From positions 1-21,380 of IMG/VR virus record IMGVR_UViG_3300020152_000060: a stretch of 21,380 bases of DNA, one strand, 5' to 3'. Made by a program: the position numbers and the translations under genes. This document shows positions 1 through 21,380 of this stretch, piece by piece. Position 1 is the stretch's first letter; every line of letters starts with the position of its first letter. Below the pieces are notes generated by a model. That model was not told the DNA's origin. It ran no database searches and was given only the letters and a program-made list of their open reading frames with translations. The stretch comes from a virus.

Positions 1-1968
1 GGTCGCTGGTACCTCGCCGACAAGGGCAAGGTGCACGAGGCGGTGCGCGCGCACGTGGCTTTCATCGCCTCGCAGCAGCGCGAGCAGCGCCGCGAGGTGC
101 GCCACTTCCTCGACCTCTACTCGGCCGGCAACGTCGCGGGGCTCGGCACGCAGACGCCGCGTGAGCGCTTGCTCGACTACCTGTTCGAGGGTCGCGCAGC
201 GACGCGCTTCAACATGGTGGCGGCGGTCTGCGACACGGCGGTGTCGATGATCGCCCAGCAGCCGGCGGTACCGCAGTACCTCACGACGGGCGGCGACTTC
301 TCGCTGATGCGTCGCGCGGAGAAGCGCTCGCAGGTGCTGCAGTGCCAGATGAACGATCTCGCAGGCGACCTCTGCCCGCGCGCGTTCCTCGACGCCACGA
401 AAGCCGGTAGCGGCTTCGTCACCGGCTATCTCGACGACAACGGGCTTCCCGCGCTCGAGCGCGTGCACATGCTTGAGCTGTTCGTCGAGCACGCGGACGG
501 CATCAACGGCAAGCCGCGCTCCATCCACCGCGTGTACCTCCGCTCGAAAGAGGTGCTCAAGGCGCAGTTCCCGGGCTTCGAGCGCGAGATCGAGAAGGCG
601 CCTCCGCCGAGTAAGGAGACGGTCGACGCGCTCTTTCTCGACGTGAAGGGCTGCCACGACATGGTGGAGGTGTACGAGTCGCATCACCTGCGCTCGATCA
701 AACGCCTCAAGCGCGACCACGACGGGCGTCACGCGGTCTGCATCGCCACAGCAGACTTGCTCGATGAGAAGTACGAGCACGACGACTTCCCCTATGTGAA
801 GGTCGACTATCGCGAGCGCGATTTCGGCTACTACGGCTCAGGACTCGCTGAGTCCGCCCGCGAGGCGCAGACGCGCGTCAACGAGCTGATCGCGCGCGTC
901 GCACGAGCGCAGGACCTCGCCAGCACACTGATCATCGCGAACCCGACGGGCGGCGATGTCAGCGTGAAGCACGAGCAGATCTCGAACGAGCTCGGGCTGA
1001 TCATCGACTACGACCCGGCGAATGGTCCGCCGCAGCTGATGAAGTGGGACGGGACGCTCGGAGATCTCCAGGAGCAGATCGACCTCGAGTTTCAGCGCGT
1101 GCTGATGGTCGAAGGGCTCTCGCAAGAGCAGGTCAACGGCGAGGGCGCTGGCAAGGGTCTCACGAGCGGTGTCGCGGTGCGCGCTGCAGACGACGTGCAG
1201 AGCCGTCGCCTCGTGTCGCCGACCAAGCGCTACCAGAGCTTCTGCATCGGCGTGGCGAAGCTCATCGAACGGCTCAACGATGACGCGGTAGAGGACGCGA
1301 AGCGGCGCGAGGAGCAGTACGAGGTCCGCGGCAAGGCCACGCAGGGCCGGCGCACGTTCCTGCGCAGCTCGCGCTGGGAAGAGCTCTCCATTCCCGAGGG
1401 CCAGGCGGACATCGTCATGGCGCCGATGAGCGCGCTTCCCACCACGCCACAAGGCAAGTGGGCGGCGGTGCAGGAGTGGATCGGCTCGGGCTTCGTCTCG
1501 AAGCAGTACGCCATGTCGCTCCTGCAGTTCCCCGACATCGACGCGTACGCGGACATCGAGCTTGCGCACCTCGACATGGTCCAGTGGCAGATCGAGCGGA
1601 TGCTGGATGGCGAGAGCGTGATCCCGTTCCCCCGTCAGGATTTGCAGATGGCGATGGACCTCGTCACCAAGAGCGAGCTCAAGGCGATCACCATGGGCGC
1701 TCCGCCCGAGGTTATCGATCTGATGGAGGCTTACCTCGTGCAGGTGAGCGAGATGCTGAAGCCACCAGCGCCGCCGCCTGGGATGCAGCCACCCGGCGCG
1801 CCTGGGCCAGTAGCAGGTCCGCAGGGTCCTGGGCCGATGCCGCCTGGAGGACCGCGACCAGGCCAGCCGATGCCGCCTCCGCAGATGGCTCCGGGCGGCC
1901 CGATGGGTGCGCCTGTGATGGTGCCGCGTCCGCCGCCTCAGCCCGTGCGTCCGGGCGTCGCAGCCTGA
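1..1968 (+). CDS. Portal protein, 5' end beyond the window
   Basis: The portal is the dodecameric ring at the capsid vertex through which DNA is packaged and ejected. The reading frame is open from base 1 and gives 655 residues to the TGA stop. A GTG at 31 with AAGGG just upstream is a possible start, but the in-frame residues before it (RWYLADKGKVHEAV) look like the Trp-containing opening that many portals have before the first long helix, so the true start is probably just left of the window. The frame has a helical N-terminal part, a mixed alpha/beta middle (KVDYRERDFGYYGSG) and a helical core (LAESAREAQTRVNELIARV), consistent with portals. About the last 70 residues are an unusual Pro/Gly/Met-rich, probably disordered tail. 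The call rests on size, overall pattern and position directly before scaffold and capsid genes; the exact portal family is not established. Confidence 0.8.
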   Translation, partial: GRWYLADKGKVHEAVRAHVAFIASQQREQRREVRHFLDLYSAGNVAGLGTQTPRERLLDYLFEGRAATRFNMVAAVCDTAVSMIAQQPAVPQYLTTGGDFSLMRRAEKRSQVLQCQMNDLAGDLCPRAFLDATKAGSGFVTGYLDDNGLPALERVHMLELFVEHADGINGKPRSIHRVYLRSKEVLKAQFPGFEREIEKAPPPSKETVDALFLDVKGCHDMVEVYESHHLRSIKRLKRDHDGRHAVCIATADLLDEKYEHDDFPYVKVDYRERDFGYYGSGLAESAREAQTRVNELIARVARAQDLASTLIIANPTGGDVSVKHEQISNELGLIIDYDPANGPPQLMKWDGTLGDLQEQIDLEFQRVLMVEGLSQEQVNGEGAGKGLTSGVAVRAADDVQSRRLVSPTKRYQSFCIGVAKLIERLNDDAVEDAKRREEQYEVRGKATQGRRTFLRSSRWEELSIPEGQADIVMAPMSALPTTPQGKWAAVQEWIGSGFVSKQYAMSLLQFPDIDAYADIELAHLDMVQWQIERMLDGESVIPFPRQDLQMAMDLVTKSELKAITMGAPPEVIDLMEAYLVQVSEMLKPPAPPPGMQPPGAPGPVAGPQGPGPMPPGGPRPGQPMPPPQMAPGGPMGAPVMVPRPPPQPVRPGVAA

Positions 1969-1974
1969 GCGCGC

Positions 1975-2004
1975 AGGCCACTACGTATCAGCACTGAGCA
2001 GCCT
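1975..2004 (+). promoter_or_regulatory. Putative phage promoter copy 1 (AGGCC element), before scaffold
   Basis: The copy begins AGGCCACTAC at 1975, seven bases after the portal stop. A −10-like CAGCCT lies at 1999-2004, with A at offset 25 and T at offset 29 as in the other five copies. The predicted transcription start is near 2011, giving a leader of about 40 nt that begins at the 2008-2034 stem-loop and keeps a clear Shine-Dalgarno sequence. The base after GGCCA is C rather than G, so this is a weaker copy. Function is inferred from the six-way alignment. Confidence 0.4.
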
Positions 2005-2007
2005 CGC

Positions 2008-2034
2008 GCTCAGCGGCATTCGTGCCGCCTGAGC
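2008..2034 (+). other. TTCG-loop hairpin in the scaffold leader
   Basis: GCTCAGCGGCA pairs with TGCCGCCTGAGC across a TTCG loop at 2019-2022, giving 11 base pairs with one bulged C. It ends immediately before the ribosome binding site and would sit at or near the 5' end of a transcript from the 1975 promoter. A 5'-terminal stem-loop that stabilises the mRNA, or an RNase III-type processing site as in T7 late mRNAs, would both fit. There is no T-run, so it is not an intrinsic terminator. Confidence 0.55.
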
Positions 2035-2042
2035 AAAGGGAG
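2035..2042 (+). promoter_or_regulatory. Ribosome binding site deciding the scaffold start
   Basis: AAAGGGAG lies 8 nt before the GTG at 2051. The in-frame ATG at 2078 has no such sequence upstream, so the GTG start is preferred. Confidence 0.6.
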
Positions 2043-2050
2043 TCCCTGGA

Positions 2051-3289
2051 GTGCTGATCAGACTGAGCAACGTGTGCATGAACGCGGCGACGGGCGGAGA
2101 GGGATCGAGCGGAGCCCCCGCGCCAGCAGCAGCATCGACGACGGCGCCCACCGCGCCGACGCAGCCCACCGAGAGCGCCCCGAGCGCCCCGGCAGAGGCT
2201 GCTCCCAAGAAGACGGCGAAGGAGCTCAAGGCGGAGCTGCTCAACGGCGGCTTTCGCAAGTTCGTCACCGAGCAAAAGGCGGCGAAGTCCGCTCCGGCGC
2301 AGCCAGCGCCCGCACAAGGCGGCGAGGGCGCGAACGCGGCCACGATTGCGAACGCGCCCACCGAAGCCGCACAGGCCGCTGCTGAGGCGCTCGCCGACGC
2401 AGGCAAGGAGGTGCCCGAGCAGAAGGAGGGCGAGAGCGACAAGCGCTACGAGCTGCGTCTCGCCACGCTGCTCCAGCGCACGCGCGAGCTCGAGGGACTG
2501 CACAAGAAGGAGTCAGCGGGCAGGGAGGCGGCCGAGAAGCGAGCGGCGGAGAACGAGGCGAAAGCCAAGGAGTTCGCCGAGCGCTTCGAGCGCATGAAGG
2601 ACAAGCGCGCCGCGCTGAAGACGCTCTACGAGACCACGGGCCTCACGCTCGAGGACATCGTCAAGGGCATCAACGCGGGCGACATCGAGCCGCACGGCAA
2701 GCAGCCCGACCTGCCGCCCGAGGTGCGTAAGCAGCTCGAGGAGCAGCGCGCCGAGATCGAGCGCATCAAGCAGGTCGAGGAGCAGCGCGCGCTAGAGCAA
2801 AAGCAGGCCGAGCAGCAGCGCACGTTCCAGGCGCACACCGAGCAGACCACGAAGTGGCTCGCGGCCAACGCCGACGACTACCCGATCCTCGCCGCGAGCG
2901 AGTGGGCGCCCGCCACGATCGTCAACAACGCCTACCAGTCGAACAACCTCGACATCGCCACGCATGCAAAGGCGATGGAGGATGGCTTCGGCAAGAGCGT
3001 GCTCTCCGTGCTCGGAGATGAGCGCGCCATCAAGGCACTGGCCAAGCGTGACCCCGCCGTGAAGGAGAGGATCGCGAAGGCGCTCGGCCTCACGGCAGCG
3101 CAAGCGCGCGCCGTCGCGCAGCAGGCCGCAGAGCAAGCGCCCGCGCCGAGAGTAGCGCCGCGTGCGGTGAGCGCCGTGCCGAGCGAGGCCACGACTCCGC
3201 CCGACCGCAAGCCGACCCGCGCCGAGCTCAAGGCGCAGGTGTTGGCGGGCCTGTCGGAGATGAAGAGGCAGCGGCGCGCGGGCGGCTGA
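2051..3289 (+). CDS. Capsid scaffolding protein
   Basis: Scaffolding proteins guide assembly of the procapsid and then leave or are degraded. This 412-residue protein has the expected composition: an Ala/Pro/Thr-rich disordered N-terminus (about 10-55), highly charged coiled-coil-like helices (about 140-190 and 222-268), a short ordered stretch with Trp residues (about 268-330, KWLAANADDYPILAASEW) and a basic C-terminal helix ending KRQRRAGG. Basic C-terminal helices bind coat protein in the P22 scaffold. It sits between portal and capsid genes, the usual place. A helix near residues 53-66 resembles one at 386-399. The start is GTG at 2051 because of the Shine-Dalgarno sequence at 2035. No protease domain is apparent. 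The identification is by composition and location, as scaffolds diverge too far for simple motif recognition. Confidence 0.75.
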   Translation: MLIRLSNVCMNAATGGEGSSGAPAPAAASTTAPTAPTQPTESAPSAPAEAAPKKTAKELKAELLNGGFRKFVTEQKAAKSAPAQPAPAQGGEGANAATIANAPTEAAQAAAEALADAGKEVPEQKEGESDKRYELRLATLLQRTRELEGLHKKESAGREAAEKRAAENEAKAKEFAERFERMKDKRAALKTLYETTGLTLEDIVKGINAGDIEPHGKQPDLPPEVRKQLEEQRAEIERIKQVEEQRALEQKQAEQQRTFQAHTEQTTKWLAANADDYPILAASEWAPATIVNNAYQSNNLDIATHAKAMEDGFGKSVLSVLGDERAIKALAKRDPAVKERIAKALGLTAAQARAVAQQAAEQAPAPRVAPRAVSAVPSEATTPPDRKPTRAELKAQVLAGLSEMKRQRRAGG

Positions 3290-3290
3290 C

Positions 3291-3320
3291 AGGCCGACAC
3301 GCAGTTCGCGCTCTTACTAT
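3291..3320 (+). promoter_or_regulatory. Putative phage promoter copy 2 (AGGCC element), before capsid gene
   Basis: AGGCCGACAC starts one base after the scaffold TGA. A −10-like TACTAT lies at 3315-3320, the best match to a bacterial TATAAT box among the six copies, with A at offset 25 and T at offset 29. The predicted start near 3327 gives a leader of about 206 nt for the major capsid mRNA. The first box departs from the others (AGGCCGA instead of AGGCCAG). Confidence 0.4.
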
Positions 3321-3321
3321 C

Positions 3322-3390
3322 AGACCACTCCCTGACTCGCTGTGCGCGGCTTCAGCAATCCCCTGCCGGCGCGTGAGTCGCGAGTGGTCT
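3322..3390 (+). other. Long stem-loop in the capsid leader
   Basis: AGACCACTC (3322-3330) is perfectly complementary to GAGTGGTCT (3382-3390). Inside it GACTC (3334-3338) pairs with GAGTC (3375-3379), and further GC-rich pairing is possible in the loop. The hairpin overlaps the predicted transcription start, so part of the 5' arm could be missing from the RNA. No T-run follows. It may be an mRNA-stability or processing element, or a DNA-level dyad for a regulator. Confidence 0.45.
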
Positions 3391-3437
3391 CTCTGTCTCT
3401 GAGCCACGCAAAGCACCTGCCGAAGACGAGCAACGAG

Positions 3438-3486
3438 GTTCGGCGCGCAACCAGGCAACGCGGATAGGCCGCGTCTGCCGCCGAAC
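3438..3486 (+). other. Nested stem-loop in the capsid leader
   Basis: GTTCGGC (3438-3444) pairs with GCCGAAC (3480-3486). Nested inside, GGCAACGCGG (3454-3463) pairs with CCGCGTCTGCC (3469-3479) with one bulged C and a five-base loop. The stems are perfect or nearly so, which suggests selection for RNA structure in the otherwise gene-free 3290-3532 interval. Confidence 0.5.
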
Positions 3487-3502
3487 ACCGATCACGTCTC
3501 AT

Positions 3503-3520
3503 CGCCTCGTTCGCGAGGCG
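3503..3520 (+). other. TTCG-loop hairpin just upstream of the capsid start
   Basis: CGCCTCG (3503-3509), loop TTCG, CGAGGCG (3514-3520) form a perfect 7-bp hairpin ending 12 nt before the capsid ATG. The 3' arm contains GAGG, a possible Shine-Dalgarno sequence at long spacing, while an exposed AGG at 3524-3526 lies at normal spacing. The stem could therefore tune ribosome access or protect the mRNA end. Confidence 0.5.
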
Positions 3521-3532
3521 CGCAGGTTCGCA

Positions 3533-4762
3533 ATGGCACTCGACAACTCAACCGCACAGTACGTCTTCAAGACGCTGTACTCCGACGGTTTCGATCCCAA
3601 GAGCCTCGTCCGCAAGAAGCCACTGCTTCAGTGGTGCGAGCACAAGACCGACTTCACCAGCGCGCGCGGCATGGAGATCCCCGCGCCGTACGTCAACCCG
3701 CAGGGCATCGGCGCGACCAACGCTGCAGCGTCCTCGAACGAGGTCTCCGGCAAGGGCGTCACGTTCCTTCTGCCGCAGCGCAGCGTCTACGGCTTCGGTG
3801 CCATCAACGGCAGCGTCGTCCGAAACGCGGTGAACGGCAACGATGACAGCCAGTTCATCAACGCGATGGAGCGCGAGGTCGACGGCGCCACCGAGTCGAT
3901 CGCGGTCGAGCTCCATCAGCGCATGTACGGCACGAACACGGGCATTCGCGCCTATCTGAGCGGCACGGCCGCGATCACCACGACCACCTGGACGTTTGCG
4001 AACGTCGAGGATGTGCAGTTCTTCGAGCCGGGTATGAAGGTCGTGCTCGTCAACCCCGCGACCGGCGCCGCGCGCGTCGGCAGCGCCGTGACCGTGACTT
4101 CTGTGGACCCGGATGCGGGCACGATGGTCTGCTCCGGCAACCCGAACAGCTTCACCTCTGCGGCGGCTGGCGACGGCATCGCGCGCGACTCGATGGTGGG
4201 CGCGGATCTCGACGGCCTCTCCGCCTGGTGCCCGACCACGGTCAGTGGCTCCGACTCGTTCCTGGGCGTCAACCGCTCCGTGTATCGCTCGCGTCTCGCT
4301 GGCGTGTACTCGGACATCAGCAATGACCCGATCCGCTCGGGCTTCATCAAGGCGATCGCCAAGGCGGAGCAGCAGGTCGGAACCATGTTCGACGCTGACT
4401 CGCCGTTCTTCATCCACCCGAAGAACCTCGCGCAGATCATGCAGTCGGTCGAGCAGGCGAAGATCGTGCACCAGGAGCTGGACGACAAGTTCGGCATCGG
4501 TCTCAAGGCAGTGAAGATCATGGACTGGACCTTCGTGCGTGACGCGATGTGTCCGGTCAACACCGCCTACCTCGTCGGCGAGGACGCGTTCATTCGCGCG
4601 AGCTGCGGTTCTCAGCCGAAGCTCGATGACTCAGGCGGCAACGAGTTCTTCATGAACTTCCGCACCGGCGTTCTCGAGTTCGTGCTGGTGCACGACGGCA
4701 ACTGCGGCTCTCCCGCGCCCTACAACATCCTTCGCTGCTCGCTGCCGACCACGGCGCTCTGA
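3533..4762 (+). CDS. Major capsid protein (HK97-like fold expected)
   Basis: The major capsid protein forms the icosahedral shell. The 409 residues have an N-terminal region with the likely extended loop (about 30-100), a long helix with charged faces (about 106-135, FINAMEREVDGATESIAVELHQRMYG), and a C-terminal domain in which a helix (FIKAIAKAEQQVG) is followed by FFIHPKNLAQIMQSVEQ, a pattern common in HK97-fold coat proteins. Residues about 145-221 look like an inserted beta domain (FFEPGMKVVLV, RVGSAVTVTSVD, GTMVCSG). The start is ATG at 3533 with AGG 6 nt upstream. It follows the scaffold after a structured leader, and two small genes follow it before a strong terminator, an arrangement that would favour high capsid expression. 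The role is well supported by order and size; the fold is inferred. Confidence 0.85.
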   Translation: MALDNSTAQYVFKTLYSDGFDPKSLVRKKPLLQWCEHKTDFTSARGMEIPAPYVNPQGIGATNAAASSNEVSGKGVTFLLPQRSVYGFGAINGSVVRNAVNGNDDSQFINAMEREVDGATESIAVELHQRMYGTNTGIRAYLSGTAAITTTTWTFANVEDVQFFEPGMKVVLVNPATGAARVGSAVTVTSVDPDAGTMVCSGNPNSFTSAAAGDGIARDSMVGADLDGLSAWCPTTVSGSDSFLGVNRSVYRSRLAGVYSDISNDPIRSGFIKAIAKAEQQVGTMFDADSPFFIHPKNLAQIMQSVEQAKIVHQELDDKFGIGLKAVKIMDWTFVRDAMCPVNTAYLVGEDAFIRASCGSQPKLDDSGGNEFFMNFRTGVLEFVLVHDGNCGSPAPYNILRCSLPTTAL

Positions 4763-4768
4763 GGCACC

Positions 4769-5170
4769 ATGCAGGCGAACTATCAAGGCGGGCCGGTCTT
4801 CGGCTATGGACCTACGCAGTGCGTGGCACGCGCGCGCTTTCAGTGCGCGGGCGCTTCCGCAGGCGCGCAGACGCTCCTCGACAACTTCGGCATCAAGTCG
4901 ATCGTTCGGGGCGCGTCCGCGGGCCTGTTCACCGTGACACTCTCAGACAAGCTCCCCGAGTTCACGCCGATCGTGAATGGCGTGGAGGCAGGCGCTCGCC
5001 TGCACAACTACGCGATTACGGCGATCGACACTACGGCGGGCACGTTCACGTTCCAGCACCGTGCAAGCTCGGCGGCTGGATTCGGCGTGGCGGGCACGGC
5101 GGATGATGGCTTGGTCGGAACCGACCTGGTCACGTTCCAGGTCATCGTCCTTGGACGGATGACGCTCTAA
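4769..5170 (+). CDS. Small virion protein, probable capsid decoration or head fibre
   Basis: This is a 133-residue predominantly beta protein. The segment GIKSIVRGASAGLFTVTLSDKLPEF followed by YAITAID and GTFTFQHRAS is typical of small phage surface proteins found directly after the capsid gene, where they often decorate the shell. The start is set by GAGG at 4761-4764, which overlaps the capsid stop and lies 4 nt before ATG, so translation is coupled to the capsid gene. The stop overlaps the next ATG by one base (TAATG). No catalytic motif is visible. It could instead be a head-completion protein, but the beta-rich, Gly/Ala-rich sequence favours decoration. Confidence 0.5.
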   Translation: MQANYQGGPVFGYGPTQCVARARFQCAGASAGAQTLLDNFGIKSIVRGASAGLFTVTLSDKLPEFTPIVNGVEAGARLHNYAITAIDTTAGTFTFQHRASSAAGFGVAGTADDGLVGTDLVTFQVIVLGRMTL

Positions 5171-5409
5171 TGGCCGCTGACGAAAAGGTCCCCGGCGTCC
5201 TCATCGCTTTCGGCAAGGGCAAGCCCGAGTCGAAGCCGGCGGACGACGAGGAGTCTTCGGAGGAAAGCCCCGGCGCGCTGGCAGCCAAGGCGTTCTGGAA
5301 TGCGGCTCAGTCGAAAGACTGGACCGGCGCGTTCGAGGCGTTCGAATCGCTCGTCGCCGAGTGCGACTACCGATCCGAGCCCAAGGACAGCGGCCCCGAC
5401 GACGAGTAA
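5170..5409 (+). CDS. Small acidic protein of unknown function
   Basis: This 79-residue protein is not recognised. A lysine-containing N-terminus (PGVLIAFGKGKPESK) is followed by a Glu/Ser/Asp-rich stretch (about 24-35), a likely helix (LAAKAFWNAAQSKDWTGAF, about 37-55) that continues into FESLVAECD, and an acidic end. It overlaps the upstream gene by one base and ends just before the tandem terminators, so it is the last gene of the capsid unit. The same position in other phages often holds small head proteins of unknown role. Its frame is supported by the tight coupling and by the terminator right after its stop. Confidence 0.6.
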   Translation: MAADEKVPGVLIAFGKGKPESKPADDEESSEESPGALAAKAFWNAAQSKDWTGAFEAFESLVAECDYRSEPKDSGPDDE

Positions 5410-5420
5410 CAATCGCTCTT

Positions 5421-5446
5421 AGTCCGAGTCCCCTCACCCTCGGACT
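5421..5446 (+). terminator. First hairpin of a tandem terminator
   Basis: AGTCCGAG (5421-5428) and CTCGGACT (5439-5446) form a perfect 8-bp stem with a ten-base loop, 11 nt after the stop of the acidic protein gene. Only TT follows, so alone it would be a weak terminator; it probably acts with the next hairpin, or protects the 3' end of the capsid mRNA. Confidence 0.55.
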
Positions 5447-5448
5447 TT

Positions 5449-5494
5449 CGCCCGCCGCTGGCTCCTCTCCTCCAGCGGCGGGCGTCTCTTTTTC
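5449..5494 (+). terminator. Strong intrinsic terminator after the capsid cluster
   Basis: CGCCCGCCGCTGG (5449-5461) and CCAGCGGCGGGCG (5472-5484) are perfectly complementary over 13 bp with a ten-base loop, followed by TCTCTTTTTC. This is the standard rho-independent form. It separates capsid from adaptor/tail genes, the same place as T-phi after gene 10 in T7. Confidence 0.92.
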
Positions 5495-5499
5495 TGGCC

Positions 5500-5529
5500 A
5501 GGCCAGCGCGCGAGCCACGCTGCGACTCT
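5500..5529 (+). promoter_or_regulatory. Putative phage promoter copy 3 (AGGCCAG element), before adaptor
   Basis: AGGCCAGCGC at 5500 and a −10-like GACTCT at 5524-5529 are spaced as in the other copies. The ATG at 5539 follows after 9 nt, so the mRNA would have a leader of 0-3 nt. It lies directly after a strong terminator, just where a new promoter is needed. GGCCAG (5501-5506) is also complementary to CTGGCC (5528-5533), so an operator-like dyad is an alternative. The gene has no convincing Shine-Dalgarno sequence. Confidence 0.55.
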
Positions 5530-5538
5530 GGCCGTGGA

Positions 5539-6234
5539 ATGGCCACCACCTTCGCGGTCTCGGACCTGCTGAGCGACATCGCGGCGCGTGCGAACGTGCC
5601 TCCCTTCACGACGAGCACGCACGTCACGAGCACGCGCGTCACCTACTGGATCTCGCAGTCGGTACGCGCCGCGAGCGCGCTCATGCGGCAGTGGTTCCCC
5701 GATGACCGCGAGCTGCTTCAGACCGCGACGCTCGCCACCGTGCCGGACTTCGAACTCGTCTCGCTCCCCGCCGACTGCGGCGAGGTGCACAGCGTCATCT
5801 GGCAGCGCGACACGAACGATTTCGTGCTGCTCGAGAGCAGCCAGGGCGACGACATCGCCGACCGGCTCAACGCCGGGGAGACCTGGGAGAGCGCGTACGT
5901 GGAGCCGCGCTGGCGGCTCGAAGGCCAGACGATCGCCATCTACCCGACGTGCTCCACGTCCGAGACGATCACCGTCTACTACACGACGCACCTCGTCGCG
6001 GGGAGCACCTTCGCGGCCAAGGTCGACTTCGACGAGTGGGTCACGCTCGACGTGCTGGTCAAGGTCTACACGGCGAAGGACAAGCCGCAGAAGGTCGCCG
6101 AGACGCTGCAGAACAAGAAGCTGCTCGAGGACGACCTGCTCTCGAAGGCGCGTCAGCGCGACCCCTATCGCACGAACACGATCCGCGACGTGCGCTACGC
6201 GCGCGCCATCCGCGATCACCGGCGCAGGTGGTGA
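5539..6234 (+). CDS. Head-tail adaptor (connector) protein
   Basis: Adaptors form a ring under the portal and link it to the tail nozzle. The 231 residues show N-terminal helices (about 6-52, including VTYWISQSVRAASALMRQW), a beta region with the motif LVSLPADCGEVHSVIW (about 73-88) common in podovirus adaptors of the T7 tubular-A and SU10-adaptor kind, a second beta block (YVEPRWRLEGQTIAIYP and TITVYYTTHLV, about 120-153), a helical segment and a very basic C-terminus (RDHRRRW). A basic or extended C-terminus that docks into the portal is usual for such proteins. It follows the terminator and a putative promoter and precedes the nozzle gene by one small gene. The family is inferred from pattern and position. 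Confidence 0.7.
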   Translation: MATTFAVSDLLSDIAARANVPPFTTSTHVTSTRVTYWISQSVRAASALMRQWFPDDRELLQTATLATVPDFELVSLPADCGEVHSVIWQRDTNDFVLLESSQGDDIADRLNAGETWESAYVEPRWRLEGQTIAIYPTCSTSETITVYYTTHLVAGSTFAAKVDFDEWVTLDVLVKVYTAKDKPQKVAETLQNKKLLEDDLLSKARQRDPYRTNTIRDVRYARAIRDHRRRW

Positions 6235-9500: not shown

Positions 9501-9619
9501 TCCGCGTCTACGACACGCGCGTGGCAGGCGAGGGCATGGCGCCGCGCACGCTGACGCTGGTCTACGCGACCAACGGCATTCTCTACGAAGAGGCATTCGT
9601 GCAGGGCTCGCGGGCGTAG
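6527..9619 (+). CDS. Tail nozzle (tubular B / stabilisation-like) protein
   Basis: The nozzle is the main tube of short-tailed phages, below the adaptor. This 1030-residue beta-rich protein opens with ILLNGGINNRSFPEL and NTRLSKRPGTCTRS, the opening typical of podovirus nozzle and stabilisation proteins. A later segment (about 693-740) has IVGSRAWAIDAE, FVYSKYRVAG and YEFFPAGEM, then ILAERGVYQVSG and WQSGGRFALLTG, repeated blade-like motifs consistent with the beta-propeller of T7 gp12-type nozzles. It is longer than T7 gp12 (about 800 residues). The start ATG overlaps the upstream TGA. The stop TAG lies inside the next putative promoter. Third-position AT looks somewhat higher here than in neighbouring genes, as in the tailspike gene. 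Confidence 0.72.
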   Translation: MVSPDRKISILLNGGINNRSFPELVSPIIQQGESPPLIASTNTRLSKRPGTCTRSPAVTQISYSGPGYKRWGLAPSSVGRVTIRYGATAYLTTVFSDDGSSPTGFGAMYGMTSSYFPARIDSAGPLDSIRCVANIAVTYNGTNDRVWRAYPAMDTTGSVVSIHVAAWTLDGRSLCEPTQVTIFPYSASRIVWVGLTSHGALGDVLWYTGPNGICYRGLTLSARTANVNAENVVVVPGASATGVDVLSDGSSSVYLAHSQAGSASGATLRRVNVTTNTTTHSVTIAGALDGGGDCAVHYGTLAGVPRVAVAFSRVTGAKTTAAIYDATLGAVGAATELDGYGDVAVKFCEEGTQRHVMVFVSSTLGDLAGSPGTLFATTFLGTRIYSVNASAWPTVSYTRSLPWLLLQSHGVQWSANGNQYAIMFYGRSYGSTGYDPGSDNYVEDASHEAYFHLPWQVTPIARYGTVRGIAQPAQTWTHQALASRGAFIVGDKIFTTYKKQSTSTTFPVLSTGRYVVLDLSPHQPPLAHDKDGATLIAAALPVQFDGSVSIEMCGPLHAPKIAYENAGGWVLPAGSYRWCAVYQWTDAAGNTHRSKPSNIVSRTMNGTSDLATIYVTAPDSTDAWTEQRVTIVLYMSAANGTSMHHYAEQGSYAIAHPLTAFTISGVVDTAKPQIYSSGAGGEEIAPQVPPALRDIAIVGSRAWAIDAEIPTRFVYSKYRVAGVGYEFFPAGEMQLPSGAGEAMAIRDWQGTAIILAERGVYQVSGDGPNNNNSGGSFSPPVKLSEIGCSNTSSAVCFPGGIIWQSGGRFALLTGAGVDYVADYACTYDVSHAILLRRYDEVLFFSDTIAEIRVYNYARKAWSTWDSQTLADPVSCAALCPWDEDMIFLYSSSTGITRRLEADTVSTAANMVWDTDWLLLGGDFQEHVILRDVVLNGTIVGAHDVTIEVYVDYETTASRTNTWTSSQLDAIDVGGRYTVRLEPSSQNCRAVRIRVYDTRVAGEGMAPRTLTLVYATNGILYEEAFVQGSRA

Positions 9620-9647
9620 GCCAGCGGCAGCACGCAACCGCCACGCT
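9618..9647 (+). promoter_or_regulatory. Putative phage promoter copy 4 (AGGCCAG element), before repeat-protein gene
   Basis: AGGCCAGCGG starts inside the TAG stop of the nozzle gene. A −10-like CACGCT lies at 9642-9647, and exactly six bases separate it from the ATG at 9654, so transcription would start at the A of ATG. There is no Shine-Dalgarno sequence. GCCAGCG (9620-9626) also pairs with CGCTGGC (9644-9650), a dyad that spans both boxes. Confidence 0.55.
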
Positions 9648-9653
9648 GGCGGT

Positions 9654-11666
9654 ATGGCCCTGCCGAGAGCTGACATCCGCAAGAAGCGCCGTGCGGAGCG
9701 GCGCGAGAACAAGCGCCTACGTAAGGAAGGCCCAGCGACCACCTACTACGGCGGCTCGAAGGAGACGCACGACGCGGCCATAGAGCGCGCGCAGCGCCAG
9801 CGCGAGACGATGAACGCGCGCGCCTCGCAAGAGATTGCCGCCTACGACGCGTACGGGCAGGACATGCGGTCGGCGGCGCAGCTCGCCGATGCGGAGTACC
9901 AGCAGCAGCGCGACGTGTCGGCGCTGTCGCGCCTGAGCTCGCAGAACGCGATCGGGGATATCGCGGGCGCTGCACAGTACGGCTCCATGCTGCGTGACGC
10001 GGCGCTCGGCAACAACGACATGCGGATCGCCGGCAACAGCGCGATGGGCATTCGGGACGCCGCCTTGGCGCAGACGAACCTGCAGAACAACGCGCTGCAG
10101 TCGAACAACATGCGCAACCAGGCGCTGGCGCAGACAGACCTACGCCGCGACGCGTTCGCCGCGAACAACCTGCTGGACTCGGCGCTCGCGAGCACGAACC
10201 TCGAGCGCTCCGCGAGCAACGCGAACGCGATCCGCTCGAACGCGCTCGCCACCGGTCCGAACCTGCAGCAGGAGGCCGCGCGCGCTGCCGGCACACGCTC
10301 TGCGGCGCTCGCCCAGACAAACCTCGAGCTGTCCGCCTCGCGTGCGAACCAGCTGCGGGATGCGGCGTTTGCGCAGACCAACCTGGAGGCCGCCTCTGCG
10401 CGCGCGAACGCGGAGCGCAACGCGGCGCTAGGCCGGACAGACCTCGAAGGGTCCGCCTCGAGCGCGAACAACATCCTCGCGGCGGCGCTGGCGAGCGGAG
10501 ATCTCAACCTCGCGGCGAACACGGCGATCGAGAAGAACGACGCGCTGGCGCAGGCTCGGCTCGAGCAGCAGATCGGGACGCTGAACCGCTCGGCGCGCGG
10601 GCTTGCTGGCTCCATGGGGGAGGGCTCGGCGCTCGCGATGCAGGCTGCCATCGCGCAGTCGGGGCTCGGCTCGGCGGACCTGGCCGCGCAGGACCAGATC
10701 GTGCGCGCGCAGATGGCGAACGACATGCGCTATCAAGCCGCGAACCAGCAGATCGCGAACCAGCTCGGGGTGGCGAGTCAGCAGTCTTCGCAAGCGTACA
10801 CGGGCGCGCGCGACCAGGCTGGCAACATCCTGAACGTCGGCAACGCCAACGCGAACCAGACCTACCTCGGCGCGAGCGAGCAGGCGGCGAACCGGCTCAA
10901 CGTGGCGAACGCGAACGCCAACACCGCGTACCAGGGCTCGGCGGACCAGGCGCACAACGTCATCTTCGTGGGCGATGCAAACGCGAACCAGCTCTACGGC
11001 GGTGCGCGCGATCAGCTTGGGGCGAACCTGGACGTAGCGAACGCGAACGCGAACACGGCCTACACGGGTGCGCGTGACCAGGCGGGCAACGTACTGGATG
11101 TGGCCAACTCGAACGCGGACCGCTCGTTCCTTGGATCGCAGTTGCAGACGCGTAACCAGCTGGAGACAGCCAACCTGAACGCGAACCAGTGGTACGACGG
11201 TTCCCGCGATCAGGTCAGCAACATCCTGGACGTTGCTGACGCGAACGCGCAGACGTACTTCGATGCGTACGATCGCCAGGCATACAACGCGCTCGGTGTC
11301 GCCGACGCAAATGCCGAGGGCCGCTACAACAGCGCCGTGGACACGCAGAACGCGTGGAACAACCTGTATGGGCAGAACATCACCGCACAGGCCGCTGCCA
11401 GCAATCGCCAGATCAACTTCAACGACGCGGCGATCAACATGGCCGGCAACACGGTGAACGCGCGCATCGGCCAGCAGCAGCAGGCGCAGCAGAACGAGTT
11501 CAACATGAACATGCTCGCGATGGACCAGCAGGCCGCTGAGAACATGCGCAAGTATCAGATCGCGGTGAACAACAACCCGATGGAGAAGTTCAAGAGCGCG
11601 ATCTTCGACCCGGCGAACCTACGCGGGGCCGAGGGTGGCGATCAGACGTACTTCCACGGGAAGTGA
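9654..11666 (+). CDS. Large repeat-rich virion protein, probable internal/ejection protein
   Basis: The 670 residues are rich in Ala, Asn and Gln. A strongly basic N-terminus (RKKRRAERRENKRLRKE, about 9-25) leads into charged helix, then a 20-residue repeat array (about 114-294, nine copies resembling RSAALAQTNLELSASRANQL), a linker, a second array of 22-residue repeats (about 382-557, eight copies resembling YTGARDQAGNVLDVANANAN), and a Gln-rich helical tail. Aromatic residues head each 22-mer. The protein starts the module between nozzle and tailspike, where podoviruses encode internal virion proteins that travel with the DNA into the host. Long amphipathic helices that assemble a channel or rod would suit such a role, but this is inference. 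It has no recognised enzyme domain. Confidence 0.65.
   Translation: MALPRADIRKKRRAERRENKRLRKEGPATTYYGGSKETHDAAIERAQRQRETMNARASQEIAAYDAYGQDMRSAAQLADAEYQQQRDVSALSRLSSQNAIGDIAGAAQYGSMLRDAALGNNDMRIAGNSAMGIRDAALAQTNLQNNALQSNNMRNQALAQTDLRRDAFAANNLLDSALASTNLERSASNANAIRSNALATGPNLQQEAARAAGTRSAALAQTNLELSASRANQLRDAAFAQTNLEAASARANAERNAALGRTDLEGSASSANNILAAALASGDLNLAANTAIEKNDALAQARLEQQIGTLNRSARGLAGSMGEGSALAMQAAIAQSGLGSADLAAQDQIVRAQMANDMRYQAANQQIANQLGVASQQSSQAYTGARDQAGNILNVGNANANQTYLGASEQAANRLNVANANANTAYQGSADQAHNVIFVGDANANQLYGGARDQLGANLDVANANANTAYTGARDQAGNVLDVANSNADRSFLGSQLQTRNQLETANLNANQWYDGSRDQVSNILDVADANAQTYFDAYDRQAYNALGVADANAEGRYNSAVDTQNAWNNLYGQNITAQAAASNRQINFNDAAINMAGNTVNARIGQQQQAQQNEFNMNMLAMDQQAAENMRKYQIAVNNNPMEKFKSAIFDPANLRGAEGGDQTYFHGK
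9993..10535 (+). repeat. Nine tandem copies of a 20-residue (60-nt) coding repeat
   Basis: Copies begin with R/L at 20-residue steps and follow the form R.AALAQTNL..SA..AN.. ; one copy has 21 residues. DNA copies have diverged, so the selection is on protein. The period differs from the second array in the same gene. Confidence 0.85.
10797..11324 (+). repeat. Eight tandem copies of a 22-residue (66-nt) coding repeat
   Basis: Each copy begins with Tyr or Phe and follows the form Y.GARDQA.N.L.VANANAN.. with no indels across eight units; a decayed ninth (YNSAVDTQN) follows at 11325. A 22-residue period equals two 11-residue turns, as in amphipathic apolipoprotein-like helices. Confidence 0.88.
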
Positions 11667-13923: not shown

Positions 13924-16548
13924 GTGCCCAGCCTGAGCGACGAGCTCGACTTCGTCCGCCAGCTCGGCGGAAGCCCGCTCGACGAGGAGCCGGAGCAGCA
14001 GCCGGAGCCGTTCGACGAGGAGGCGTTCGTCGCGTCTCTGCATGGCTCCGCGCCTGAGCCTGCGGTCGACCCCGATCGTGTGCGCATGTTCGCGCCCGAC
14101 GGATCGGCGGTCACGGTCCCCAAGCTCGACATGCAGCGAGCGCTGGACGAGGGGTATCAGACCGCCGAGCAGCAACACCAGGCTGCGCTCGAGGCAGAGT
14201 ACGGTGGCGCTGGTGGTGCCGCGCTGGCGGGCGCCATGGGCGGGCTGCGTGGCCTCTCGCTAGGGCTCTCGGACGCGGCGAGCGCGGCGCTCACAGGCGC
14301 GCTCACGCCAGAGGCGCCACAGCTGACCCCAGAAGCGCGCGCGCGTGCCGAGCAGATGGGACTTGCCGTCCCCGAGGACAAGGGCTCCTTCCTGACCGGC
14401 TACGAGGCGGCTCGCGAGTACCAGCGAGGGCTGCAGGAAGCGCACCCGACCGCCTCACTGACCGGGGAGCTTGGCGGAGCGCTCCTTGGCGGCGGCGCAG
14501 GGCTCGTGCGCGGCACGGCGGGCCGCATGCTCTCGGCTACGCCAGCAGCGCTCGCGACGCGTGCGGCGGTGGCCTCGTCGGAAGCGGCGGCGGCGCGACT
14601 CGGCGGCGGGGTGATGGGCCGCATTGGTGCCACCGCGCTGGGCTCTGCCGTGGAGGGCGGGATTGCCGGCGCGGCTGTCCAGGTGGCGGACGCGGTGCCC
14701 GAGTTCGCGACCGATCCCGCCGAAGCGGCCGAGCACCTGCTTGCCGGCGCGGGCGAGGGCGCTCTGCTCGGTGCAGCCATCGGCGGCGGACTCATGGCGT
14801 CGGGCGAGCTCGCGCGCGCGGCAGGTCGCGGCGCGCTGAGCCTCACGGACAGCATGATGGGCAGCCTCATGCCGAGCACCGACACGCTGCGGCAGCTCGC
14901 CGGGGAGAGCGCATACAAGGCAGCCGTCGGACGCACGAGCAAGGCGGCGATGAAGTTCGCCGATCGGCACGGCGGAGCCGCTGCAGTGGGCAAGACGCTG
15001 CTCGACGAGGGCGTTCCGCTCGCGGGCTCTGCCGAAGAGATCCTGGAGGCCACCTCGCGCAAGGCAGACGAGGTCGGCGCGGCCCTCGGCGCGAAGGTGA
15101 AGGAGATCGACGCGCTCGGGGGTATCCCCGTCAGCCGCGCCGAGGTGATGCAGCGCATCGACGACGAGGTTTTGGCGCCGCTGCGCGGTAACGTGTTCGG
15201 GCAAGACATCCTGGCTGCCGTGGAGCGCAAGATCGAGCCGTTTCGCGGCGCCATGTCAGCCGGCGAGCGTCCCGTGATGGTCCGCGGAGCCGACGGCGCG
15301 ACCCGTGCGGTCAATCGCGACGCGATTAGCTTCGAGGAGCTGCATGCGATGCGCAGGGACCTCGATCAGACGCTCCGCTACGAGTCTGCGGGGCCTCCGA
15401 CGCCCACCACGCAGGTCATGCGCGACGTGCGCACGGTGCTCGAGGATTCGTGGCTGGAAGCAGCCGAGCGGAGCGCGCAGAGCGTCGGCGTGGACGGCTT
15501 CGCGGACTCCGTACGCGGTCTCAAGCGCAAATACGCCCACCTTCGGCTCGCGGCAGACCAAGCCGAGGAGGCCGTGCAGACGCAGCTCGCCAATCGCTCG
15601 CTCTCGCTCACGGACAACATCTGGGGAGCGGGCGCCGCGGGCGCTCTCACCGCTGGTGGTGGGCTCTTCGGGCTCGCTGCGGGCGCGGGGACGGCCGTCG
15701 CTCACAAGATGGTGCGCGAGCGGGGGCGTGGTATCGCGGCCATCGCGTTCAATCAGATGGCCGACCTCGCAGAGCGTAAGACAAGCCTTGTCGCGCTCTC
15801 CGCGAGCGGTCAGCAGAGGCTGGCGCGCACCGCGCAAGCGCTCGTGGAGCGCACGGGACGCGCTGCCTACGCAGCGGAGGGCGCTGCCATCTCCAAGTTC
15901 AGCGAGCGCGACCTGCAGGAGGCGATTGCGGAGGCGCAGGAGCTCGAGGACCCGAGCAGCGAGACCTCCGCGCACCTGCACAACACCGCTCAGCAGCTCG
16001 ACATGGTCAATCCAGGCATGGGCCAGGCGTACGCGCAGACCGTGGTGCGCCGCTCGCAGATGATCCGAGGCATGCTGCCGACGAAACCGCTCAGCACGGC
16101 GGTGTTTTCGCCTCAGCGGCAGCTCGATCCGACCACGGAGCGCAAGGTCCACCGCGCGATCGCCGCCTCTCACGAGCCGCAGAAGGCGCTCGAGCGTGTC
16201 GCAGCGGGGAATCACTCGCCGGAGGACCTTCGCGCCGTCAAGACGGTGTATCCGGCGATGTGGAAGCGCTTCCAGCAGAGCGTGCTCGAGCAGTTCCGCG
16301 CCATGCAGCGCCCGCCGAGCCACGAGACGCGTCTGCGCATCGCCTACGCCACGGGCTTGAACCTCGATCCAACGGTGGAGCCCGGCGCGATCCAGATGCT
16401 GCAGCGCGTGGCGCAGTCGCCCGACCAGCAGCAGCAAGCCGAAGCGAAGCAGGACGCTTCCGCACAGGCCGTCGCGCAGCAGTTCAAGCCGATCGACGCA
16501 GACAGCGTGTACGCCGCACCTGTCGATGCTCGTATCGATCGCAGGTAG
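13924..16548 (+). CDS. Very large virion protein with glycine-zipper-like segments, probable ejection/membrane channel protein
   Basis: The 874 residues start at GTG directly after the upstream TAA. An acidic N-terminus and a VRMFAPDGSAVTVP module (53-67) precede a long Ala/Gly-rich region (about 95-300) with small-residue zipper patterns such as GELGGALLGGGAGLVRG (about 181-197) and GALLGAAIGGGLMASGEL. A second one, GALTAGGGLFGLAAGAG, lies at about 572-588. The intervening and C-terminal parts are charged helix. The segment YEAAREYQRGLQEAHPTASLTGELGG recalls a pattern seen in several phage internal virion proteins. Membrane-inserting zipper helices would suit a protein that forms the DNA translocation channel through the host envelope, as T7 gp15/gp16 do. 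The stop TAG lies inside the next putative promoter. No peptidoglycan hydrolase motif is recognised. Confidence 0.62.
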   Translation: MPSLSDELDFVRQLGGSPLDEEPEQQPEPFDEEAFVASLHGSAPEPAVDPDRVRMFAPDGSAVTVPKLDMQRALDEGYQTAEQQHQAALEAEYGGAGGAALAGAMGGLRGLSLGLSDAASAALTGALTPEAPQLTPEARARAEQMGLAVPEDKGSFLTGYEAAREYQRGLQEAHPTASLTGELGGALLGGGAGLVRGTAGRMLSATPAALATRAAVASSEAAAARLGGGVMGRIGATALGSAVEGGIAGAAVQVADAVPEFATDPAEAAEHLLAGAGEGALLGAAIGGGLMASGELARAAGRGALSLTDSMMGSLMPSTDTLRQLAGESAYKAAVGRTSKAAMKFADRHGGAAAVGKTLLDEGVPLAGSAEEILEATSRKADEVGAALGAKVKEIDALGGIPVSRAEVMQRIDDEVLAPLRGNVFGQDILAAVERKIEPFRGAMSAGERPVMVRGADGATRAVNRDAISFEELHAMRRDLDQTLRYESAGPPTPTTQVMRDVRTVLEDSWLEAAERSAQSVGVDGFADSVRGLKRKYAHLRLAADQAEEAVQTQLANRSLSLTDNIWGAGAAGALTAGGGLFGLAAGAGTAVAHKMVRERGRGIAAIAFNQMADLAERKTSLVALSASGQQRLARTAQALVERTGRAAYAAEGAAISKFSERDLQEAIAEAQELEDPSSETSAHLHNTAQQLDMVNPGMGQAYAQTVVRRSQMIRGMLPTKPLSTAVFSPQRQLDPTTERKVHRAIAASHEPQKALERVAAGNHSPEDLRAVKTVYPAMWKRFQQSVLEQFRAMQRPPSHETRLRIAYATGLNLDPTVEPGAIQMLQRVAQSPDQQQQAEAKQDASAQAVAQQFKPIDADSVYAAPVDARIDRR

Positions 16549-16576
16549 GCCAGTGCGCCGGTCGCGTCCGCAGACT
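16547..16576 (+). promoter_or_regulatory. Putative phage promoter copy 5 (AGGCCAG element), before receptor module
   Basis: AGGCCAGTGC starts inside the TAG stop of the preceding gene. A −10-like CAGACT lies at 16571-16576 and seven bases separate it from ATG 16584. No Shine-Dalgarno sequence is present. A perfect 7-bp dyad, GTCCGCA / GACT / TGCGGAC (16566-16583), covers the −10 box and ends directly against the ATG; it would mostly lie upstream of the predicted transcript and may act on DNA. Confidence 0.52.
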
Positions 16577-16583
16577 TGCGGAC

Positions 16584-19349: not shown

Positions 19350-20128
19350 GAAGCAGGAGCAGAGCCTTTCGAAGGAATCTATTGCCGCGTGCACTATCCG
19401 TTACTGCCGCGGAGTTCGACCCTCTCGAGCACGCTGCAATCTTCGCTGCTTACCGCGCTGACACCACGGATACCGCGACAAACTTCGATTGGACCGACCT
19501 CACGGGAAACGGCCACACGCTGCGTCAGGCGACGACGGACGACAAGCCGACTGTCACGACTGCGGCGGAGCTCGGTGGCCGAGAGGTCATCCGCTTCGAC
19601 GGCGTGAGCGACTACCTCGCGGCCATCGACGTAGCGGCGACGTACACGTTCTTGCATGACGGTGCTGGCGCAGACGTGTGGGCAGTCGGCGTGATGCGCG
19701 ACAACACTGCGGGTGAGTCTGTCATCGACACGTACTCAGCTGGTGCGGCGACGGGCTTTCGCATTCTGCGCGGCGGGACGGGTCCAGTCGTGCGCACGAC
19801 GACGCTGACGAACGCGGGCGGCTTCTCGGCGGATCTCACCAGCACGGGTCCTTTCACGCAGGACCAGCCGTTCATCGTACGCGTCACGGTGAAGACCGGG
19901 GCGACGCGGGAGGTGGAGCTGTTTGCCAATGGCGCATCCGTGGCCAACAGCGCGCTGACGACGCCCGGCACGAACGCGCCGCCCGCCACGCTCAACGTGG
20001 GCCGGCGCCCGAACGGCTCCTCGTTCTGTCAGGTGGATCTCGCGGCGATCTACATCTTCAGCGACGTGCTCTCGACCTCGGACGCGACGAGCATGCAGGA
20101 CCTGCTGTCTACGTACTACGCGCTGTAG
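19346..20128 (+). CDS. LamG / concanavalin A-like virion protein
   Basis: The 260-residue frame starts at ATG 19346, which overlaps the tailspike stop; GGGAG at 19332-19336 is a good ribosome binding site for it. A basic N-terminus (RSRSRAFRRNLLPR) is followed by a jelly-roll lectin-like domain: DWTDLTGNGHTLRQ (about 48-61), VIRFDGVSDYLAA (81-93), alternating strands, and a terminal helix after VDLAAIYIFSDVL. This W.D.(S/T)GNG...FDG..D.L pattern is typical of LamG-like (concanavalin A-like) domains that bind glycans or serve as fibre tips. It probably assembles with the tailspike. The TAG stop lies inside the next putative promoter. Confidence 0.75.
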   Translation: MRSRSRAFRRNLLPRALSVTAAEFDPLEHAAIFAAYRADTTDTATNFDWTDLTGNGHTLRQATTDDKPTVTTAAELGGREVIRFDGVSDYLAAIDVAATYTFLHDGAGADVWAVGVMRDNTAGESVIDTYSAGAATGFRILRGGTGPVVRTTTLTNAGGFSADLTSTGPFTQDQPFIVRVTVKTGATREVELFANGASVANSALTTPGTNAPPATLNVGRRPNGSSFCQVDLAAIYIFSDVLSTSDATSMQDLLSTYYAL

Positions 20129-20156
20129 GCCAGCGCTCGAGCGCGACCCTTACCGT
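20127..20156 (+). promoter_or_regulatory. Putative phage promoter copy 6 (AGGCCAG element), before distal fibre genes
   Basis: AGGCCAGCGC starts inside the TAG stop of the LamG-like gene. A −10-like TACCGT lies at 20151-20156, exactly six bases before ATG 20163, so transcription would begin at the start codon. No Shine-Dalgarno sequence is seen. A palindrome GCGCTCGAGCGC lies between the boxes at 20133-20144 and could be an operator or simply reflect GC-rich sequence. Confidence 0.55.
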
Positions 20157-20582: not shown

Positions 20583-21380
20583 GTGGCCGTCATACTCGAC
20601 CTCAGCTCGCACCAGCCTCCGAGCACGCTCACGTCCGGCAACTGGCCGGCGACGATGCGCACGGGGCGCTGGCAGTTCACGTTCACGCCGAGCTATGCAT
20701 CGGGCGCTGCGCCTGAGCAGTTCTACGTCCTGCTCAACTTTGCGTCGAATACGCCCGTCGGCGACATCTACCTCGCGGACGACTCGATCAACGGACGCGC
20801 GGAGCTGTGGTTTCCCGGCGCGAACGGCTACGAGCTGCTGACGCACGTCACGTTCGCCGCCGCGCAGACGGTCACGGTCGAACTCAACATCCCCACCGGA
20901 CAGGTGGTGGTCTCCGGGGCGACTGCTGGCAATGGCACGTTCGCTTTCACCAACGCGCCGAGCTCGTACGCCGACGGCAATCTCGACATCGGCCACATCG
21001 GCAGCGCGTACGTCTTTCCCGGCACGATCGGCAACGTCGAGGACTTCACCAGCTCGGGCACAGGCACCGCCGCAGGCGCGCTCTCCGGGCTGACGGGGGC
21101 TGCGACTGGAGCCATGAGCATGGCTGGCACGGCGGCAGCCAGCGTGCCGGTGCTCGCAGGCGCGGCGACGGGCGCGAACACGACCAGCATCGACGGCGTG
21201 GCGGCGGCCCCGACCGGCATTCTCGTGCCGCTCACAGGCGTCGCGCTGCCTGCCACGTTCGCCGACAGCCACGCGCTGATCCGCAGTCCGTACGGACGCT
21301 GGCAGTTCACGTTCACGCCAGCGTTCGCATCGAGCTCGATGGCGCTCGGCGAAACGCAGTGGCTGCTCTCGTTCAACGGC
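20583..21380 (+). CDS. Fibre-like protein with duplicated domain, 3' end beyond the window
   Basis: A frame open from GTG 20583 to the window edge gives 266 residues with no stop. AGGG at 20575-20578 is a weak ribosome binding site. It begins AVILDLSSHQPPSTLTSGNW, has a beta domain containing GRWQFTFTP (28-36), then an Ala/Gly/Thr-rich linker (about 157-225), and then a second copy of the domain starting with GRWQFTFTP again (238-246) and cut by the edge. Repeated beta domains joined by flexible linkers suit a tail fibre or adhesin-like virion protein. The family is not recognised. Confidence 0.6.
   Translation, partial: MAVILDLSSHQPPSTLTSGNWPATMRTGRWQFTFTPSYASGAAPEQFYVLLNFASNTPVGDIYLADDSINGRAELWFPGANGYELLTHVTFAAAQTVTVELNIPTGQVVVSGATAGNGTFAFTNAPSSYADGNLDIGHIGSAYVFPGTIGNVEDFTSSGTGTAAGALSGLTGAATGAMSMAGTAAASVPVLAGAATGANTTSIDGVAAAPTGILVPLTGVALPATFADSHALIRSPYGRWQFTFTPAFASSSMALGETQWLLSFNG
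20667..21319 (+). repeat. Exact 23-nt direct repeat within the fibre-like gene
   Basis: The copies are at 20667-20689 and 21297-21319, identical in sequence and in frame, 630 nt (210 codons) apart. They encode RWQFTFT and the following Pro codon. Conservation at DNA level suggests a recent domain duplication or recombination. Confidence 0.85.

Follow-up and report, generated by a model that had tools for sequence, protein, structure and literature searches.

Genomic context of the capsid gene

The DNA analysed here is the virus record IMGVR_UViG_3300020152_000060, whose whole stretch of 21,380 bases is referred to below as the window. It carries a tailed-phage virion module, in which the portal and capsid genes were assigned by PHROG match and the scaffold-like gene by its position. 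The capsid gene is preceded by a gap (3290-3532) that extends from the end of the scaffold-like open reading frame (ORF; 3289) to the capsid start codon (ATG, 3533); with 243 nt, this is the longest gene-free interval, as a preliminary description of the same DNA had noted, and the next gene gap measures 129 nt. Downstream of the capsid gene lie two small genes, both with tblastn matches in the closest relative of the phage (E 2e-17 and 5e-5), which are probably part of the same transcript, and a hairpin recognised by eye as an intrinsic terminator, which would close the capsid unit (capsid gene and two small genes). A consensus terminator scan of positions 1500-6000 on the + strand, which had a loop limit of 8, found none and also missed this terminator.

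3533-4762, + strand: major capsid protein gene (phrog_14242, major head protein, E 2.9e-10)
4769-5409, + strand: two small genes, 4769-5170 and 5170-5409
5449-5494, + strand: putative intrinsic terminator, with a perfect 13-bp stem, a 10-nt loop and a T-rich tail

Elsewhere in the window, repeats with a 66-nt period are found at 10782-11255, inside the 670-aa gene at 9654-11666, and a 42-nt repeat with 81% identity between its copies (20664-20705 and 21294-21335) lies near the record end.

Related phages and the gap before their capsid genes

A search of a phage record collection gave no match to the whole window or to its capsid, portal or large tail protein. The closest relative identified is IMGVR_UViG_3300046747_000237 (G001; 60 kb), in which the portal protein is 68% and the capsid protein 55% identical; the records L004, L005 and L006 are pieces of G001 (all but its last 75 bases), and G002 is the L018 record. 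Portal scans added L018, L011/L073, L015, L013/L075, L076, L077 and L078, the last of which showed the portal alone. Among bacterial genomes, the portal search matched none of 7 and, at E 1e-10, none of 396, none of 392 and one of 235; the sole match (L082), with 27% identity, comes from a genome in the phylum of Nannocystis exedens, and its capsid gene follows a gap of 50 nt and lacks a promoter-like box of the kind described below. Among genome contigs, 51 pattern matches included no relative, and L009, which had been retrieved with the stem 2 pattern, was discarded as an apparent chance match inside a minus-strand reading frame. G001 encodes a phage integrase family protein (PF00589, L005 12209-13372) and may thus be temperate. 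An HNH-like gene, recognised by eye, directly follows the capsid gene in G001 (L004 6680-7438) and L077 (12547-13128) and is not found there in the window.

The gap before the capsid gene measures 222 nt in G001, about 295 nt in L077, 61 nt in L075, 28 nt in L015, 12 nt in L076, 11 nt in L018 and 9 nt in L011. The G001 value was measured to ATG 5337, which aligns with the window start codon, while the G001 ORF opens at ATG 5262; in L075, L076 and L082, the gene upstream of the gap was judged by position only. In L077, the gap includes a hairpin resembling a terminator and shows no more structure than expected (z 0.23). This comparison leaves the window and G001 as the only genomes in which a homologous leader was seen. 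Seven of the eight relatives with a readable gap, G001 being the exception, have an unrelated leader or none; unrelated leaders in related phages, with no compensatory changes in the stems, had been named in the preliminary description as evidence against an RNA element.

A recurrent promoter-like box

The 5' end of the gap is occupied by a promoter-like element that is missing from the preliminary description, and boxes of the same kind occur at five further places in the window, three of them beginning in the TAG stop codon of the upstream gene.

3290-3320, + strand: promoter-like element of the capsid gap, with CAGGCC at 3290-3295 (-35-type) and TACTAT at 3315-3320 (-10-type)
1974-2004, + strand: promoter-like box before the scaffold-like gene; held-out rank 5 of 42,698, predicted start at about 2011
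5499-5529, + strand: promoter-like box; held-out rank 2, start codon 5539 at +40
9617-9647, + strand: promoter-like box beginning in the upstream TAG stop; held-out rank 1, start codon 9654 at +37
16546-16576, + strand: promoter-like box beginning in the upstream TAG stop; held-out rank 4, start codon 16584 at +38
20126-20156, + strand: promoter-like box beginning in the upstream TAG stop; held-out rank 3, start codon 20163 at +37

The box was discovered by eye, and 17 sites were likewise gathered by eye; A27 and T31 are invariant among them, T31 partly as a result of the selection rule. The pattern YAGGCC-N19-YANNNT occurs five times in the window, compared with 0.26 times in shuffled sequences, and all five sites lie on the + strand at gene gaps, while two G001 pieces contain four and three sites (0.27 in shuffles for each). 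All six window gaps of at least 30 nt contain a YAGGCC box, and (C/T)AGGCC is present in many G001 gene gaps too. When a held-out matrix of 15 box columns, trained on 11 non-window sites, was applied to 42,698 window positions, the top five all fell at gene gaps on the coding (+) strand; this reduced set of columns was chosen after the result with all 31 columns, in which four boxes (9617, 5499, 20126 and 16546) lead, the box at 3290 is 8th and that at 1974 lies outside the top 16. The capsid box at 3290 is the weakest in the window (held-out rank 12 of 42,698; 10th in the leave-one-out ranking) and has G in place of A at column 7, and the homologous capsid site in G001 is strong (rank 7 of 119,814, with a matrix trained on 8 non-G001 sites). 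The stricter pattern YAGGCCA-N19-A-N3-T yielded 19 sites, comprising five in the window, ten in G001 and four in G002, and none in the five other relatives searched; the same pattern read backwards as a control gave two sites over all eight records. No description of a box or leader of this kind was found in the literature searched. We infer that the box represents a promoter class of the phage, repeated before genes of the window phage and of two relatives.

Start-codon spacing and putatively leaderless genes

At 13 of the 19 stricter sites, a start codon lies at +36 to +42 from the box, and two G002 sites first seen after this spacing rule had been set both have an ATG at +38. Among the 15 sites of the first pattern, those at L006 9503 and L018 168 are not located before a start. 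Box-adjacent starts also show reduced pairing with the anti-Shine-Dalgarno (anti-SD) sequence: duplexes weaker than -3 kcal/mol were calculated for 10 of the 13 such starts and for 4 of the 24 other starts (Fisher p 0.0008). Adding the two independent G002 starts, both of which pair with the anti-SD sequence (-6.4 and -5.0), gives 10 of 15 without a Shine-Dalgarno sequence at this threshold vs 4 of 24 (p 0.002), and five of the 15 pair at -5.0 kcal/mol or better.

In bacteria, leaderless genes are marked by TANNNT some 12 bp upstream of the start (PMC3160421), and a report on AR9 describes phage transcripts as frequently leaderless and long leaders as unusual (PMC5312081). At many box genes, only 7 nt separate the -10-like hexamer from the start, so that their mRNAs would be leaderless; the hexamer-to-start spacing of the leaderless class, about 7-12 nt, is found at 13 of the 19 boxes and not at the capsid and scaffold copies. 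Box recurrence, start spacing, reduced Shine-Dalgarno pairing and the published TANNNT mark together point to a promoter class with many leaderless mRNAs, and we read the box-driven mRNAs as probably leaderless for the most part, with the capsid and scaffold mRNAs as leadered exceptions. For the capsid mRNA, the transcription start was predicted by the same spacing.

3327, + strand: predicted transcription start of the capsid mRNA, at +37 from the box start, where many boxes have the start codon

Stem-loops and folding of the gap

The gap contains three perfect stems, which were confirmed as inverted repeats at the places given for them in the preliminary description.

3322-3390, + strand: stem-loop 1, with a 9-bp outer stem (3322-3330/3382-3390) and 25 pairs in the fold
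3438-3486, + strand: stem-loop 2, with a perfect 8-bp stem (3438-3445/3479-3486) and an inner stem (3454-3463/3469-3479)
3503-3520, + strand: stem-loop 3, with 7 bp (3503-3509/3514-3520) and a TTCG loop, ending 12 nt before the ATG

The density of such stems, which had been presented as unusual, proved to be near chance in both count and stability. Three perfect stems of at least 7 bp with loops of 3-60 nt were observed vs 1.30 expected, a number reached in 15% of 500 shuffles, and the observed count of stems of at least 8 bp was reached in 7% of shuffles. Folding of 3290-3540 gave a z-score of -2.46, with 4 of 200 shuffles equally good; when the gap was compared with 175 same-size windows of the record, it ranked 10th by z-score (-2.17 in this ranking, from 25 shuffles) and 78th by energy. 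On the basis of this ranking and of the stem-count shuffles, unusual overall folding of the gap was rejected. When folded from the predicted start at 3327, the leader is no more stable than its shuffles (z -1.00). The 9-bp outer stem of stem-loop 1 straddles the predicted start site and is unformed in this fold; with a start near 3327, five of its nine pairs would be untranscribed, and stem 1 as first drawn would be full only in read-through RNA.

Tight hairpins (at least 7 bp, loop 3-8) number eight in the window, where 20 shuffles average 16.75, and three of the eight lie within the 598 non-gene bases of our gene list, an enrichment (binomial p 0.001). Two of these three directly abut a start codon (9637-9653 and 16566-16583), and the third (3503-3520) is located 12 nt before one. 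The idea that hairpins regularly precede box-adjacent starts found no significant support (12 starts vs 28 others, Mann-Whitney p 0.18) and was rejected. The suggestion that the gap might encode a small RNA gained no support from Rfam, which gave no match above the gathering score in the window, nor from the terminator scan mentioned above.

Conserved core of the predicted leader and ribosome site

The capsid leader predicted from the start at 3327 is about 206 nt long and was compared with its G001 counterpart from the predicted start to the ATG. The alignment covers 3428-3501 with a score of 47, the best of 1000 shuffles reaching 35, and a covariance-model search of 18 sources returned only the window and G001 copies, with nothing further below E 0.76.

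3428-3502, + strand: conserved leader core containing stem-loop 2, homologous in G001 only
3522-3526, + strand: weak Shine-Dalgarno candidate GCAGG, 6 nt before the ATG, anti-SD duplex -3.7 kcal/mol
1999-2020, + strand: 22-nt block identical in G001, within 1999-2028, close to where the scaffold mRNA is predicted to begin
2013-2028, + strand: hairpin GCGGCA-TTCG-TGCCGC, likewise close to the predicted start of the scaffold mRNA

Of the ten pairs in the inner stem of loop 2, seven are the same in both genomes, one shows a two-sided change (G-C to C-G), one a wobble change, and one lacks pairing in the aligned window sequence. Pairing falls from 95% to 25-55% when the stem partners are slid, and the shuffle control for covariation gave a chance-level result (265 of 500) in this comparison of two sequences. 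The check by covariation in relatives, proposed in the preliminary description, thus yielded one compensatory pair in stem 2, in G001, together with a shuffle control at chance. We consider an RNA function of the core likely.

The best anti-SD match in the leader is GAGG (3515-3518), situated in the 3' arm of stem 3, and the anti-SD duplex of -5.9 for the capsid start depends on it; stem 3 would for this reason probably control access to the ribosome site. It has no sequence counterpart in G001, where a perfect 6-bp hairpin of unrelated sequence (GGTCCC-TGATC-GGGACC) occupies a comparable position. Three upstream ORFs with GTG starts, of 9 to 41 codons, lie inside the leader, and an antisense protein over the leader was rejected, the two 60-aa antisense ORFs showing no similarity. 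The earlier idea of a regulatory leader is retained in part: the capsid leader is probably untranslated and its core at 3428-3502 is kept in G001, while the structure as a whole is not unusual.

Proposed model and alternative explanations

We lean towards reading the interval as a promoter followed by the 5' untranslated leader, about 206 nt long, of a separate capsid transcription unit. Transcription would start near 3327 from a phage-specific promoter at 3290-3320, and the capsid and scaffold genes would carry a leader, unlike the many box genes with predicted leaderless mRNAs. Within the capsid leader, an RNA role would be most likely for stem 2 and its conserved neighbours, which might stabilise the mRNA or shape ribosome loading.

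Were the gap instead unremarkable GC-rich intergenic sequence with chance stems, the capsid would be expressed by read-through from upstream promoters, in agreement with near-chance stem counts and energy, with the weakness of the capsid box and with the 9-61 nt that suffice at this place in six of the eight relatives with a readable gap; we regard this as unlikely in view of the core homology with G001, the placement of a box of a recurring class at the homologous position in both genomes, and the putative terminator downstream of the capsid unit. The core might also be, or have been, coding, as an N-terminal capsid extension starting at ATG 5262 in G001, with a lost or rare start codon in the window. 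In both genomes, the capsid reading frame runs open through the core up to the capsid ATG (from 3377 in the window and 5238 in G001), so that a coding remnant is possible, and with the in-frame ATG 5262 inside the core, G001 may have a shorter leader and a coding core. The core-to-ATG distance is likewise equal in both (84 nt), and nine of the first 11 codons specify the same residue; however, the next 17 residues match at three, the third-position bias is not significant (4/7, p 0.17), the capsid alignment places MA at the start in both genomes, and an extension would hardly fit into the 9-28 nt gaps of some relatives. Because no in-frame ATG, GTG or TTG precedes 3533 in the window, a coding origin of the core is considered less likely than an RNA one and, on the whole, improbable, though still a serious rival. 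The window has just two CTCTTA copies, each as CGCTCTTA on the + strand in a gene gap (3309-3316 and 5414-5421) and each followed by a hairpin; CGCTCTTA resembles the start of lambda boxA. Nevertheless, a lambda-type boxA/hairpin antitermination site at 3309-3390, with CGCTCTTA and then the hairpin, is very improbable, and a lambda nut site was rejected because the boxA-like sequence at 3309-3316 forms part of the promoter-like element, before the predicted start, and does not occur in L004, L005 or L006.

A role of the YAGGCCA boxes in RNA, as translation or processing signals about 37 nt before starts and not as a promoter, would fit their fixed distance to the start and their strand bias, as well as the hairpins that abut two start codons. 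Such hairpins are not general, however, the box lies far from the start at the capsid and scaffold genes, and its two conserved blocks have -35/-10 spacing, the second (YANNNT) being like that of leaderless promoters (PMC3160421); we therefore give this reading little credence. Similarly improbable is that stem-loop 1 acts as a double-stranded processing site or silences read-through RNA, such that RNA arriving from upstream would contain the complete hairpin and RNA from the local promoter would lack part of the 5' arm, as in T4 gene e. A long hairpin is folded at the same place in both genomes (25 pairs in the window and 27 in G001), the G001 box at 5117-5147 overlaps the 5' arm of its hairpin, and T4 gene e offers a precedent (PMC3014915), but here some 140 nt separate the end of the hairpin from the capsid ATG, in contrast to gene e, and the stretch over which the window and G001 leaders can be aligned does not include its arms.

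Beyond the promoter-and-leader reading of the capsid gap, we propose, as a speculation held with low confidence, a dedicated virion-gene regulon under a private promoter, YAGGCC-N19-YANNNT, perhaps with a phage activator, in which much of the output would be leaderless, the scaffold and capsid genes would be leadered, and the type of leader would help to set virion-protein stoichiometry. A small PhoB/OmpR-type DNA-binding protein encoded by G001 near the small terminase gene (PF00486, L006 12132-12434) is a candidate activator; PF00486 was found in one of eight records, several of which are fragments, and the activator idea is thus unsupported by the relatives. If this picture of the box genes is right, transcription units, start codons and expected protein dosage could be read from sequence in an uncultured phage group, in which virion genes with and without a leader, all behind a single promoter type, would also offer a natural setting for studying what a capsid leader contributes. 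The most interesting part of the locus is the box with its leaderless pattern, and not the density of hairpins.

Comparison with known systems

In phage T7, the leader of gene 10 combines a phage promoter with a structured capsid leader between the scaffold and capsid genes. The promoter-like box and structured leader described here are likewise located between scaffold and capsid genes, whereas the predicted leader is much longer. A search for a T7-type RNA polymerase (PF00940) in G001 gave no match, and the control genomes were silent too.

In T4 gene e, promoters lie inside a hairpin arm and the structure inhibits the ribosome site (PMC3014915). The capsid gap resembles this arrangement in that the putative promoter extends into the 5' arm of a hairpin, which only the longer RNA would contain in full, a likeness that is clear in G001 and partial in the window; unlike in gene e, the hairpin lies far upstream of the ribosome site.

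The box itself may be compared with the leaderless promoters of high-GC bacteria (PMC3160421). The similarities are that YANNNT ends about 7 nt before many starts and that the genome is GC-rich; most of the box-adjacent starts, 10 of 15, also appear to lack a Shine-Dalgarno sequence. In contrast to those promoters, the phage box contains an additional upstream AGGCC block, found in three of the eight related records searched, and its capsid and scaffold copies would drive mRNAs that are not leaderless.
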